This document shows positions 5,829 through 24,814 of a stretch of DNA of 24,814 nt, piece by piece. This DNA is from a virus. A model generated the notes under the pieces. The model was given only the letters and a program-made list of their open reading frames with translations. It had not been told where the DNA came from and did no database searches. A program made the position numbers and the translations under genes. The DNA lies in IMG/VR virus record IMGVR_UViG_3300025671_000494, positions 1-24,814 of that record. One strand, 5' to 3'. Numbering within the stretch: position 1 is the first letter of the stretch; every line of letters starts with the position of its first letter.

Positions 5829-5864
5829 TGTGTGGTGGGGGTGCACCCCCGCCCCCACCACACA
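5829..5864 (+). terminator. GC-rich hairpin after the capsid gene
   Basis: TGTGTGGTGGGGG (5829-5841) pairs perfectly with CCCCCACCACACA (5852-5864), giving 13 bp and a 10-nt loop. A weakly T-rich stretch (CTTTACTTCGTATTT) follows. It lies 10 nt after the capsid stop and is probably a partial terminator or 3'-end stabiliser. The inner 14 bases GGGGGTGCACCCCC (5837-5850) are a perfect palindrome that could form a competing hairpin. Confidence 0.7.
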
Positions 5865-20075: not shown

Positions 20076-20442
20076 ATTTTTTCCTTATGGTGGGATCTAT
20101 TGTCAGTATTTCTTCCAGCATTTTCAAAGCCTTTTGGACATGATACCATGTGTGCGACTTGGATGAGTAGCCCATTATCTCTGTGATTCTGTTGTACGAA
20201 TACTGGTCGAAGAACCTGAGTTTCAGCAGAGTGCGGTGAGGTTCTGGCACTTGATCTAAGCAGGACTCTACGATGTCAATGATGTTCCAATCTGCTTCTT
20301 CTGGAGTGGGGTATTCACCCCACTCCATCATCCTTTCTGTTTCGGATGTCGGCTTGTGCGGGTGTAGTTCTCCTGTGCGTAGCACACGCTCTTGTATGTC
20401 TTTGGCTATTTCTTTTCCCACGGTTAGACTAGAAGGGGTCAT
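20059..20442 (-). CDS. Sigma-region-4-like regulator
   Basis: This 127-residue protein has a polar N-terminal half and a C-terminal helix-turn-helix of the sigma-factor region 4 type. DQVPEPHRTLLKLRFFDQYS (63-82) is the usual 'lead helix, then LxLRxxxxxS' pattern, followed by YNRITEIMGYSSKSHTWYHVQKALKMLEEIL (83-113). Region 4 contacts the -35 element, so it could redirect host RNA polymerase to late genes or act as a small transcription factor. No region 2 is seen, so it is not a full sigma factor. It might recognise the TAGAACG motif of the late module; this is speculation. It overlaps both neighbours (14 and 17 nt). A perfect 11-bp hairpin covers residues near 40-48. Confidence 0.65.
   Translation of the reverse strand: MTPSSLTVGKEIAKDIQERVLRTGELHPHKPTSETERMMEWGEYPTPEEADWNIIDIVESCLDQVPEPHRTLLKLRFFDQYSYNRITEIMGYSSKSHTWYHVQKALKMLEEILTIDPTIRKKYDNKN
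20302..20327 (-). other. Perfect intragenic hairpin, 11 bp
   Basis: TGGAGTGGGGT pairs with ACCCCACTCCA around ATTC. It sits in the sigma-like gene and is among the longest perfect stems in the window. Confidence 0.8.
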
Positions 20443-20881
20443 TGCTCGGGAAGTTTTCTATTGGTAGTGACCAGTAAGGTTTATTGTTATCCTCGAACCT
20501 AGACACTGTTCCATGAGCGTGACACAAAGCACCCCACACTGCGATGCGTTCACATGTGTACCGCTTCTTAGCGGAGTCCCACACCCACAGGTATGTGTCT
20601 CCGAAAGTGTCCCACAAATTCAGGATCTCCAGTTTCTCAAACTTCAGTTTCAACGTAGGGTTCTTAGCCCTAGATGAAACACCCATCACCTCATAGGCTC
20701 CGTTGGGTAGCAGGAAGTCTGGTGCTTGTCTAAAGAACACGGGGAGTTTAGCGACGGAGAAATCTGGTCTGTCTATGCCTAGTCGGTGGGCGTGCGGATA
20801 ACTTTCTAGGAACGCTGTCTCCGCTGTGCTACCCATCTTTTGGTAGCGTGCACCCCACGATTGTTGATGGAACTCTGTCAC
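20429..20881 (-). CDS. PD-(D/E)XK-like protein, unknown
   Basis: This 150-residue protein follows the layout of a conserved actinobacteriophage family: an E near 21 in STAETAF, GIDRPDF, then APDFLLPNGAYEVMG (53-67), LKLKFEKLEILNLW (77-90) and YLWVWDSAKKR (97-107). PD54-55 followed by E64 looks like a PD-(D/E)XK nuclease core. The usual Lys two residues after the Glu is Met66 here; Lys78 or Lys80 might replace it. Activity is therefore uncertain. It overlaps the RusA gene by 4 nt and may act with it in DNA recombination or packaging. This is inference from context. Confidence 0.6.
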   Translation of the reverse strand: MTEFHQQSWGARYQKMGSTAETAFLESYPHAHRLGIDRPDFSVAKLPVFFRQAPDFLLPNGAYEVMGVSSRAKNPTLKLKFEKLEILNLWDTFGDTYLWVWDSAKKRYTCERIAVWGALCHAHGTVSRFEDNNKPYWSLPIENFPSNDPF

Positions 20882-21246
20882 TGTTTTTCTCCTCGGATCA
20901 CCATGACCGCCTTGTCATCAGGGTATGCGACACCGTTCAGTGCGTCGCATACCAGTTTCAGATAGTTGTCGGTGTCACCACGTAACTTGGATGTGTGGCT
21001 AGGATCTAAAGGTGTGATAGTTATTTCTGTTGATGTCGGTGTGAACACTGCTTCCAGCATCACAGGTGTCTCGTAGTATGGTGCACGTTCCTTGCGCCAC
21101 TGGTCAGCAATAAACTCTTCCGCCATCAGGGTGCGTTCAGGTGTGAACACACGTCCCCTGCGACCTAGGCGTGGTCTACCTTTCACCACTGGGCGTTGCT
21201 CCACTTTTATGGTGAAAGGTTTCTTGGGGGATTTGCGTCTAGCCAT
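20878..21246 (-). CDS. rusA: RusA-family Holliday junction resolvase
   Basis: This 122-residue protein has the RusA signature. KGRPR (22-26) and TPERT (35-39) are followed by GDTDNYLKLVCDALNG (90-105) and YPDD (108-111). The aspartates Asp91, Asp93, Asp101 and Asp110/111 match the metal-binding set of the dimeric resolvase. It cuts four-way DNA junctions made during recombination-dependent replication so that linear DNA can be packaged. Length is typical. AAGAG precedes the ATG. It follows the transglycosylase gene after 13 nt and overlaps the next gene by 4 nt. An inverted repeat with 11-bp arms (21178-21188 and 21210-21220) covers its N-terminal codons. Confidence 0.88.
   Translation of the reverse strand: MARRKSPKKPFTIKVEQRPVVKGRPRLGRRGRVFTPERTLMAEEFIADQWRKERAPYYETPVMLEAVFTPTSTEITITPLDPSHTSKLRGDTDNYLKLVCDALNGVAYPDDKAVMVIRGEKQ
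21178..21220 (-). repeat. Inverted repeat, 11-bp arms
   Basis: ACCTTTCACCA (21178-21188) and TGGTGAAAGGT (21210-21220) are perfect inverted copies around a 21-nt loop. It is in the first third of the rusA coding region. Confidence 0.6.
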
Positions 21247-22533: not shown

Positions 22534-22542
22534 TGTTTCTCC

Positions 22543-23610
22543 TCACCAGTCGTCACCCAATACTGTTTGGGCATCATAGTCGTCGTCGTTAGTTTCGGTC
22601 GTTGTTACACCGAAACCGTTGAGTCTCAGCAGTCTACCTGTGCCCTGCTCAATCTCGAAGTCAATGTCGTCTAGCAGGTGTGCATCTTGACGCTTGCACT
22701 TCACAAGGTTCACAGTCACAGTGTTCTCATGCAGTTGTTGTTCGTAACGCAACTGATCTAGCCGTTCCAACATACGTTCGTTAGCGGTAGACTTGTTCAG
22801 TTTCTCTACGATGTCACGCATCTGTCGGTCGATCTCAAACTTCTTACGTCGTACACCGATGATGTGTGACGCTTGTTGTTCTCCACCGTAAGCACCCGAA
22901 GAGATCGTCTGCTTCTGACCATCCGAACCTGCGGTTCGTGATGACTGGTGCAGTACGATCAACGGAATGTTATGACGCTTACCGAACGCTTTGATTGTGT
23001 TCGCTTTAGCAGGCACAGTCTCGTCACCCGATAGCAACTCTAGATAGTCGAACACCATCAACGCTGGTGTACCTAGGTGCCTATCCACCTCAATCATTGC
23101 TTTCTCCATGTCACTCAGTGACATGAACTGGTCGAACACTGCAAGGTTAGGGAACCATTCTCGTGCTGTAGATTCCAACAGTTCAATCCCTTCGGGATCA
23201 CCGTCGGAGATCATCTGCTCCAACCTGCGCCCTTCCACCTTGTGAACTAGGCACGCCAACTTGATTAGCGTCAAGGTGCGTGGCTCATCAGGACAGAAGT
23301 AGACAACGTTCTTGTCACGGTTAGCGACAAGGATCTGTAGCAAGAACAGTGTCTTACCTGAGTGGGAGAACCCGTTGACTAGGCACATCTCTGATGGTGC
23401 AACACCACGTACCTGTTCGTCTAGGTCAGGGAACCCGAAGTAAATACGTTCGTTAGGATGTTGCGCCCAATGCACGTATTCGTCAATGGAATCCGATAAC
23501 GGTTTGTAAAGTGCAGGTCTAGCAAGTGTGGCCGTAGACGAATCAGGCGGGGAGATGTTCTCTCCCCGCCCTAACTTCGCCCACCGCTCTTCTAGAGTGG
23601 CGGTGTCCAT
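22543..23610 (-). CDS. DnaB/RecA-fold ATPase, replicative helicase
   Basis: This 355-residue protein has Walker A GFSHSGKT (80-87), a CPDEP block after the second strand (106-110), Walker B LMVFDYLE (184-191, Asp188) and IVLHQSSR (218-225). Those match the RecA-fold core of DnaB-type helicases, where H/Q near 221-222 senses the nucleotide. A helical RRKK-containing part follows the core. The N-terminal helical domain of full-length DnaB is absent; only about 55 residues precede the core, so it may be a minimal helicase or a loader-like ATPase. It begins 5 nt after the gene upstream and is followed by the primase. A 10-bp perfect hairpin sits 40 nt into the gene. Confidence 0.8.
   Translation of the reverse strand: MDTATLEERWAKLGRGENISPPDSSTATLARPALYKPLSDSIDEYVHWAQHPNERIYFGFPDLDEQVRGVAPSEMCLVNGFSHSGKTLFLLQILVANRDKNVVYFCPDEPRTLTLIKLACLVHKVEGRRLEQMISDGDPEGIELLESTAREWFPNLAVFDQFMSLSDMEKAMIEVDRHLGTPALMVFDYLELLSGDETVPAKANTIKAFGKRHNIPLIVLHQSSRTAGSDGQKQTISSGAYGGEQQASHIIGVRRKKFEIDRQMRDIVEKLNKSTANERMLERLDQLRYEQQLHENTVTVNLVKCKRQDAHLLDDIDFEIEQGTGRLLRLNGFGVTTTETNDDDYDAQTVLGDDW
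23107..23125 (-). other. Perfect intragenic hairpin, 8 bp
   Basis: CATGTCAC pairs with GTGACATG around TCA, inside the helicase gene. Confidence 0.6.
23546..23570 (-). other. Perfect intragenic hairpin/dyad, 10 bp
   Basis: GGCGGGGAGA pairs with TCTCCCCGCC around a 5-nt loop, 40-65 nt downstream of the helicase start. It could be an RNA hairpin limiting translation or a dyad operator. Confidence 0.75.
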
Positions 23611-23615
23611 CTAGG

Positions 23616-24098
23616 TCACCGACCCCTTGGAGGCCAGAACGCCATGTCGTCACCACGTGCGTTCTTCGTGCCGTCAGCCGCCTTGAACCAAGGCCGCTTC
23701 GGGTTCTGTGCCAGACCGTCACGGTTGTCCCACACTTGTGTGACACCTGCGGCGGCACACTGTGCCACCAACCAGTCAGGCAACTCGCCATGCTGTGTGC
23801 CCTTAACCTGAACACCCATGTTCGTGGGTGCCTGACCGTACTGCTGTGGTGCAGGTGCCATCGTTGCGGTTGGGAACACATCCTGAATCTGTTGCATCGG
23901 GATGTCCGTGATGTGGCTAGGTGCAGGGCTAGGTGCTGGTGCACTGCCAACTGCGTTGAAGATGCTGTCACGAACGATCTCGAACGCGACCGCCCAATCA
24001 GCAGTGGCTAACTCAATGTTGTCGGGCTTCACCGACGTTGCTAGTTCTGCCGCAATTTTTGCGGCAACTTGCGTGATGATTGACTCATCTTTATTCAT
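23616..24098 (-). CDS. Replication-operon protein of unknown function
   Basis: This 160-residue protein is not recognised. The N-terminal 50 residues are helical. A Pro/Ala/Gln-rich linker (about 53-95) follows, and the C-terminal 60 residues form a compact domain (LPDWLVAQCAAAGVTQVWDNRD, then KRPWFKAADGTKNA, ending MAFWPPRGR). That last part resembles the zinc-ribbon-like ends of some phage DNA-binding proteins but lacks the paired cysteines. Being first in the operon with helicase and primase suggests an ssDNA-binding or helicase-accessory role; this is inference. AAAGGAGC precedes the ATG at good spacing. An 8-bp hairpin with a TTT loop (24048-24066) lies early in the gene. Confidence 0.7.
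   Translation of the reverse strand: MNKDESIITQVAAKIAAELATSVKPDNIELATADWAVAFEIVRDSIFNAVGSAPAPSPAPSHITDIPMQQIQDVFPTATMAPAPQQYGQAPTNMGVQVKGTQHGELPDWLVAQCAAAGVTQVWDNRDGLAQNPKRPWFKAADGTKNARGDDMAFWPPRGR
24048..24066 (-). other. Perfect intragenic hairpin, 8 bp
   Basis: TGCCGCAA pairs with TTGCGGCA around TTT, near the 5' end of the gene at 23616-24098. Confidence 0.65.
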
Positions 24099-24136
24099 GT
24101 GTATTGCTCCTTTGTGTTTGTTGGTATGGAGAAGTT

Positions 24137-24237
24137 TCTTGGAGGGCAGGTTTGCAGACCACCCTAGGGTGAAAGAAATATGGTATTGACTTCTTTCTAT
24201 GTTAGTTGTTTATGTTGTTAGGGTTTGCCCTCCAAGA
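24137..24237 (-). repeat. Long inverted repeat in operon leader, 12-bp arms
   Basis: TCTTGGAGGGCA (24137-24148) and TGCCCTCCAAGA (24226-24237) are perfect inverted copies separated by 77 nt. The loop holds a 12-bp perfect palindrome, CACCCTAGGGTG (24160-24171). It lies between the leader promoter and the first gene of the replication operon, so a leader RNA could fold here. It may be a regulatory switch, an operator or part of an origin. Confidence 0.65.
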
Positions 24238-24308
24238 TTTTCGGGAAGGCGGCGGAGAAACATTTGCAGGTACACCACTCCTGCGACACCGCCTTCCCTT
24301 AAGTTCAT
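24210..24308 (-). CDS. Candidate leaderless 32-residue leader ORF
   Basis: A 32-codon ORF begins MNLREGGVAGVV and ends GGQTLTT before TAA at 24212-24210. Its ATG lies 7 nt after the last base of a good -10 hexamer, so the transcript could begin on the ATG itself, a leaderless start common in Actinobacteria. It has no ribosome-binding site. It spans the whole 24243-24298 hairpin and one arm of the longer inverted repeat, as a regulatory leader peptide would. It may instead be a chance reading of structured RNA. Function unknown. Confidence 0.35.
   Translation of the reverse strand: MNLREGGVAGVVYLQMFLRRLPENLGGQTLTT
24243..24298 (-). ncRNA. Structured leader hairpin, candidate cis-acting RNA
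   Basis: GGGAAGGCGG (24243-24252) pairs perfectly with CCGCCTTCCC (24289-24298). Inside it GCAGG (24266-24270) pairs with CCTGC (24280-24284), giving a nested two-stem structure. It lies in the untranslated region between the nuclease gene and the replication operon. No T-tract follows in either direction. A regulatory RNA element is inferred from structure and position only. Confidence 0.5.
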
Positions 24309-24314
24309 GTAAAC

Positions 24315-24343
24315 ATCATATCAGATGTAACAACGTCGGTCAG
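24315..24343 (-). promoter_or_regulatory. Sigma70-type promoter for the replication operon leader
   Basis: Read on the minus strand, CTGACC (24343-24338) matches the -35 consensus at four of six positions. After a 17-nt spacer comes TATGAT (24320-24315), one base from TATAAT, with TG one base upstream (extended -10). The predicted start is at about 24308, on the ATG of the 32-codon ORF. It overlaps the stop codon of the nuclease gene and would drive the operon down to 19185. Confidence 0.55.
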
Positions 24344-24814
24344 CAAGACCCTTTGCAGATCGACCAGTAGTTACACCAAGTCGCTGAACAGAGGGTACCT
24401 TGGTCGTTCATCGGCCAAGCACTGGTGATGCCAGACTGAAGGGCGTTGTTCACGATGACCTGTGTCTGACGGTTCAACCAACGGTAGTCCGACTCGGTGC
24501 GTGTGATGTCTACCACCTGACCCTCTGGCTTTTCTTTCCGAATCATCACACCGTACTTGAAAGTCTGTGTGTCGCTAGTGGAGTGACCGTTACGCTTAGC
24601 GAACTGACAGTAGACCGTAGGCTGGTACGCTTTGTTCTGTTTCTCGTTGGCATAGTATTTTCTGCCAGCAGTTTTCCAATCCCAAATGGTACCATTAGGA
24701 TCTATGTAGTCCATAGTACCTTCGTACCATATTTCGTAACCATTACTAGCCAATAGACCTGAGGGATAACGGAACCCTAGTTCCGTTGTCCCACCCCATT
24801 CTACATCTATTGCT
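24340..24814 (-). CDS. Cas4/RecB-like exonuclease (partial, 5' end outside window)
   Basis: The reading frame is open to the window edge, so the true start lies upstream; 157 residues are visible. A PD-(D/E)XK core is seen: YEGTMDYID, then TIWDWKT, where the final Asp-x-Lys is the catalytic pair, and a Gln-containing helix (KAYQPTVYCQF) like the QxxxY motif of RecB-type nucleases. The last 20 residues have four cysteines (C-x4-C-x5-C-x3-C) around NYWSIC, like the iron-sulfur cysteines of Cas4/AddB nucleases; such enzymes usually take one ligand from the N-terminus as well. It would resect DNA ends for recombination or degrade host DNA. It is upstream of the replication operon on the same strand. 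Confidence 0.75.
   Translation of the reverse strand, partial: AIDVEWGGTTELGFRYPSGLLASNGYEIWYEGTMDYIDPNGTIWDWKTAGRKYYANEKQNKAYQPTVYCQFAKRNGHSTSDTQTFKYGVMIRKEKPEGQVVDITRTESDYRWLNRQTQVIVNNALQSGITSAWPMNDQGTLCSATWCNYWSICKGSC

Follow-up and report, generated by a model that had tools for sequence, protein, structure and literature searches.

Background and locus under study

The c4 RNA of phages P1 and P7 is a phage-encoded structured RNA whose complementary bases are probably located in loops and which prevents ribosome access to the ant messenger RNA (mRNA) by blocking its ribosome-binding site (PMC12197685), the target of this antisense RNA being the ant/icd antirepressor operon (PMC8201110). 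It is the closest precedent for the element described here, the leader of the replication operon in the virus record IMGVR_UViG_3300025671_000494. The window analysed corresponds to this complete record (24,814 bases). Judging from its sequence, the leader hairpin possesses unpaired loop bases complementary to ribosome-binding sites of phage genes, as does c4, and a leader mechanism of this type appears plausible given the known precedents. The two differ in that c4 governs the ant operon and immunity in temperate phages, whereas here the RNA would be the leader of a replication operon, without Rfam match and with several candidate targets: small early genes, the primase gene and others, but not an ant/icd operon.

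Other systems share part of these features. The B11 (6C) small RNA of mycobacteria has C-rich loops, able to pair with the G-rich 5' regions of several mRNAs (PMC10470900), but it is a chromosomal small RNA with two such loops and not a phage leader. In the translational operator of gene 32, a replication gene of phage T4, a structured element lies on the 5' side of a leader with less structure, layout being conserved above sequence (PMC535899). However, gp32 binds its own mRNA, whereas here the leader's own Shine-Dalgarno (SD) sequence is not matched by the loop, and the first downstream gene, g2, encodes a protein without known fold for binding single-stranded DNA. OLE RNA carries the 16S anti-SD sequence CCUCC (PMC12054373), paired within its P6 helix and bound by bS21, whereas the CCUCC of the leaders is unpaired with flanks that vary between phages, and these phages encode no bS21. 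We consider it somewhat probable that the leader exposes an antisense loop that keeps ribosomes from binding to a number of phage genes.

The leader of the window

The preliminary description of this DNA had reported an extended -10 promoter with 17-nt spacing, a nested hairpin, a long inverted repeat enclosing a 12-bp palindrome and a ribosome-binding site for the next gene, all of which were found again at the same positions on the minus strand. The promoter scan identified a -35 box CTGACC (24343-24338) and an extended -10 box (TGA)TATGAT (24320-24315) separated by 17 nt, with TG preceding TATGAT. It is the single sigma-70-like site of the region and scores 9/12, as compared to a shuffle average of 0.4. 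Folding of the 209-nt leader gives -66.1 kcal/mol versus a mean of -44.2 for 200 dinucleotide shuffles (z = -5.5, 0/200 as good), which bears out the earlier impression of an unusual amount of structure.

From the 5' end, the leader first forms the nested hairpin (24243-24298), composed of an outer stem (24287-24298 / 24243-24254), an inner stem (24280-24284 / 24266-24270) and an unpaired 3' bulge (24255-24265). The inverted repeat underlying the outer stem (24243-24252 / 24289-24298) has arms of 10 nt that pair at 100% and are extended by a U-G and a G-C pair to a 12-bp stem. At 24254-24262 lies the predicted antisense seed UGUUUCUCC, mostly unpaired and complementary to SD sequences, the counterpart of the CCUCC of relatives. 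The second, long inverted repeat (24137-24237) has 12-nt arms (24137-24148 / 24226-24237, 100%), an inner stem (24189-24197 / 24171-24179) and, between the arms, the palindrome CACCCTAGGGTG (24160-24171). It is followed by the SD of g2, AAAGGAG (24107-24113).

Neither an intrinsic terminator nor an attenuator (a stem followed by a T run) was found in the leader, and a search of the window for transfer RNAs (tRNAs) found none. The comparison with RNA family models that had been suggested gave no match: all Rfam families at gathering threshold returned no hit in the window, so neither the c4 nor the 6C model matched, and a scan of five relatives returned a tRNA only. Compared by DNA similarity with 50,697 phage records, the leader yielded short chance matches only, and the pattern CTTGGAGGGCAAACCCT was found in the near-identical twin record plus three contigs without matching context, the number expected by chance.

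Conservation of the hairpin in related phages

Relatives were gathered by helicase searches, providing 80 loci, most of which display cas4, leader, g2, helicase and primase in identical order. As the hairpins share just CCUCC, which is beyond the reach of a sequence aligner, they were compared by helix scans in Python. Leaders longer than ~90 nt mostly hold a strong hairpin, while those below ~75 nt comprise the promoter and the SD only. In the helicase tree the hairpin-bearing and hairpin-less states are intermixed, with at least six groups lacking the hairpin. Within the phage collection, MW202803 is the sole relative with annotation; this podovirus, which comes from a Florida spring, is distant (helicase 42% identical), and the hairpin preceding its helicase has a loop without CCUCC.

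In 28 diverged leaders (~20 independent), the hairpin lies 5-30 nt (median 14) past the best -10 box, often of the extended type; 19/28 of these boxes have p<0.1 against shuffles. With the -10 box so close, the transcript should have the hairpin at its 5' terminus. Stem sequences are unrelated between leaders, yet pairing is retained and the architecture is conserved. In three alignable sets every stem cell pairs, one, two and three pairs respectively being changed on both sides. With regard to the covariation check suggested in the preliminary description, stem sequences drift while pairing is kept. Furthermore, under a helix rule treating both strands alike, the stems contain 28 G-U (G-T) oppositions versus 9 A-C, an excess indicating that the hairpin works as RNA, from the transcribed strand.

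These data bear on the function, for which a regulatory RNA, an operator or a replication origin had been envisaged. The compensatory changes in three sets, the predominance of G-U over A-C and the constant place after an extended -10 box support the first, and no support was obtained for the other two. A role as DNA, as origin or operator, would fit the location ahead of helicase and primase and the palindrome 24160-24171. It is nevertheless very improbable given the G-U excess, the position directly after the promoter, the occurrence of the long repeat and palindrome in one relative only, and the absence of the hairpin from at least six relative groups. Indeed, beyond the twin record, a scan for the core of the long repeat retrieved locus L007 only. 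There, pairing is preserved: one pair has gone from A-U to G-C, another from C-G to U-G, and a deletion is matched between the arms. The palindrome is invariant between the two sequences compared. Only the first hairpin is widely conserved, the long repeat and palindrome stressed earlier being local to the lineage of the window.

To note, further hairpins accompany the leader hairpin in some relatives. At L005:1226-1270 a second one (GGGGAGGGAGAG...CTCTCCCTCCCC) follows it, in the position of the window's long repeat and unrelated to it in sequence. A second hairpin of leader-like design, without evident promoter, also occupies a gap separating two early genes, 3-4 kb upstream of the leader hairpin (L103:560-604, L089:431-473, L086:552-592, L075:1359-1409 and L014:1361-1394); its loops read for example UUAUCCUCCG or UUAUUCCUCCG, and in G022 this loop matches two SDs.

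A loop complementary to Shine-Dalgarno sequences

Strong hairpins (helix score of at least 30) were collected from all loci and clustered. CCUCC (CCTCC), the complement of SD sequences, is present in the interior of 15/20 independent leader-hairpin clusters versus 6/116 other clusters (Fisher p 2e-11) and, of the 1024 possible 5-mers, ranks first inside leader hairpins. It is located in the 3' bulge beside the closing stem, in the apical loop or, rarely, in the 5' bulge. The window and L007 are outliers, harboring UGUUUCUCC instead.

The first alternative on which this enrichment bears is a 5' stabiliser or processing signal, in which the stem would protect the mRNA end or serve its maturation, with the loop sequence of minor importance. 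The predicted start of the hairpin at the transcript 5' end agrees with it, as do strong hairpins devoid of CCUCC preceding other genes in these genomes. It predicts, however, neither CCUCC in 15/20 loops nor a match to SDs, and we consider it improbable. Quite improbable is a protein-binding site, in which the hairpin mimics the 3' terminus of 16S ribosomal RNA (ACCUCC) and is recognised by a protein of the host or the phage (bS21, Era or the g2 product), serving autoregulation or titration. CCUCC is indeed a fixed core, and bS21 binds the anti-SD mimic of OLE RNA (PMC12054373). However, no bS21 gene occurs among 30 phage records, the only gene whose presence tracks the hairpin is lysozyme-like and likely reflects kinship, g2 shows no known RNA-binding fold, and the flanks follow the upstream SDs in their variation, something that a fixed protein site would not call for.

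The loop might also act in cis, forming a hairpin-SD pseudoknot with the g2 SD of its own mRNA and so tuning the first gene of the operon. In most relatives the hairpin lies 25-63 nt ahead of the g2 start, the second, similarly designed hairpin lies ahead of another early gene at a comparable distance, and CCUCC is able to pair with GGAG(G). Across relatives, though, the loop flanks fit their own g2 SD no better than that of other phages (mean -8.68 vs -8.67 kcal/mol, p 0.46), and in the window just 4 bp are possible (CUCC-GGAG), across 142 nt, which leaves this switch rather unlikely.

Genome-specific matching to early genes

When all genes of each genome are ranked, better loop matches are found at other early genes than at g2. 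Three matching tests compared the loop with SDs of its own genome, those upstream being taken from within 8 kb, using one genome per clade and swapped genomes as control. Based on contiguous match and duplex energy (16 clades), upstream early SDs exhibit p 0.003 or less, and downstream genes no signal. In an anchored test counting only the letters outside the CUCC/GGAG core, upstream early SDs display an excess of ~1 nt, the median p being no higher than 0.002, with p 0.64-0.85 for the downstream, replication genes and 0.09-0.23 for the late genes of the other strand. Dropping any single clade leaves the signal in place, and so does dropping the three strongest at once (p 0.002).

Sites matching at 8 letters or more number 44 versus 16 expected, and are concentrated in the window clade, the L017/L030/L068 group, and the L075 and L086-L097 groups. 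In the latter two groups the leader loop ACCUCCAGU is the exact complement of ACUGGAGGU, and in the L017/L030/L068 group AACCUCCC matches GGGAGGUU. Conversely, when any hairpin is accepted whose loop fits at least two early SDs, the leader hairpin is recovered in G026, G022, G014 and G003, and a hairpin preceding cas4 in G004. The genome-specific match to upstream SDs is predicted by none of the alternatives: own-SD switch, protein site, 5' stabiliser or DNA origin.

In the window clade, the odd seed UGUUUCUCC is paralleled by odd SDs, AGGAGAAACA, with zero occurrences in a reversed-pattern control. The primase start of the window reads AGGAGAAACA-ATG, its ribosome-binding site GGAGAAACA (22534-22542, minus strand) being a perfect 9-nt complement of the seed, and the site GGAGAAA (20886-20892, minus strand) of the gene 20429-20881 is a 7-nt complement. 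The near-identical twin L170 possesses the same 9 nt at five genes (97, 63, 78 and 42 amino acids, and the primase) and 7 nt at cas4, while the genome of L007 has three early genes with 8-9 nt matches, plus the primase.

Two observations concern the early regions themselves. Many early genes display their SD in the loop of a small perfect hairpin with an AC-UGGAG-GU core and variable stems (early regions of G009-G031, e.g. G018 and G026), such as UUACAAC-UGGAG-GUUGUAA, AAUUUAC-UGGAG-GUAAAUU or AUGAAC-UGGGAG-GUUCAU. G004, which has no g2-leader hairpin, carries this hairpin, of 26 bp, before cas4 (L008:3448-3512, ~1.5 kb upstream of the helicase); its loop reads UAUGUCUCCUUGU and fits two early SDs of this phage.

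Proposed mechanism

Computation shows the promoter-hairpin-SD layout, that it is conserved as RNA, that the loop is complementary to SDs and that it matches upstream SDs in a genome-specific manner; we infer that the RNA is produced, pairs, acts in trans and represses. The 5' end of the replication-operon mRNA would fold into a stable hairpin presenting the antisense seed, which would pair with the SD regions of other phage genes, mainly early genes 1-7 kb upstream and, in the lineage of the window, also the primase gene within the same operon. Once the replication promoter fires, copies of the leader, whole or as a processed hairpin, would build up and cover the target ribosome-binding sites, decreasing translation as c4 RNA does in P1 and P7. 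This suggests, for these uncultured aquatic phages, an RNA switch turning early genes down at replication onset.

Several points weigh against such antisense control. The predicted pairing is short (8-10 nt) and the SD core is common to every SD. The weak signal of the late genes of the other strand in the contiguous and energy test (p ~0.03) indicates that part of the excess may be due to composition. One clade (G013, G015, G031; loci L029, L031, L101) has zero matches, as do the single genomes G001 and G020. Hairpin-less relatives keep similar early ribosome-binding sites, which must hence serve another role too. An A-rich stretch after an SD is commonplace, making the match in the window clade less surprising, and the window's own early region falls beyond the contig. 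Finally, gene calls relied on simple open reading frame rules, and the p-values are post hoc, the matching tests having been devised after others on the same data, among them the negative test on the g2 SD.

A broader view, quite possible though short of probable, is that of a family-wide RNA switch from early to replication genes in aquatic phages. The replication-leader hairpin and the ribosome-binding sites of the early regulon, often in small SD-in-loop hairpins, would co-evolve as a phage-specific lock and key, the circuit being conserved and the sequence never. If true, this would constitute a phage post-transcriptional regulon invisible to sequence-family searches, because stem, seed and targets change together. 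It would also provide a testable account of the timing of early versus replication genes in such phages, and a search recipe for others, in which hairpin loops are compared with the genome's own SDs.

Operon organization and other hairpins

On the minus strand, the operon comprises, in order, a Cas4-like nuclease, the leader, g2, a DnaB-like helicase, a primase, a transglycosylase-like protein, a RusA-like resolvase, a gene without assigned function, a sigma-like protein and a DUF1599 protein. The Cas4-like PD-(D/E)XK nuclease (24340-24813), identified by PF12705 and synteny, is cut by the contig end. The conserved protein g2 (23616-24098) belongs to no PHROG or Pfam family, and comparison of a structure model of moderate quality with the PDB provided no fold, its single structural match being an unnamed viral protein. 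The C-terminal half of g2 also occurs in short, otherwise unrelated virus contigs (L037-L050), adjoining a transglycosylase-like gene.

A perfect 15-bp hairpin is located at 5829-5864 of the window, ~36 nt 5' of the start of a structural gene, and most relatives have similar G-rich hairpins (AATGGTGGGGG...CCCCCACCATT) ahead of a late-strand gene. The helicase gene (22543-23610, minus strand), the query used for finding relatives, harbors a hairpin within its coding sequence, GGCGGGGAG-AGAACAT-CTCCCCGCC, at codons 14-22 (23546-23570). Among 12 distinct helicase genes its mean stem is 11.4 bp, as compared to 1.9 (maximum 2.8) for synonymously drawn codons, and amino-acid changes, for example Pro to Ser, are accompanied by matching synonymous changes.
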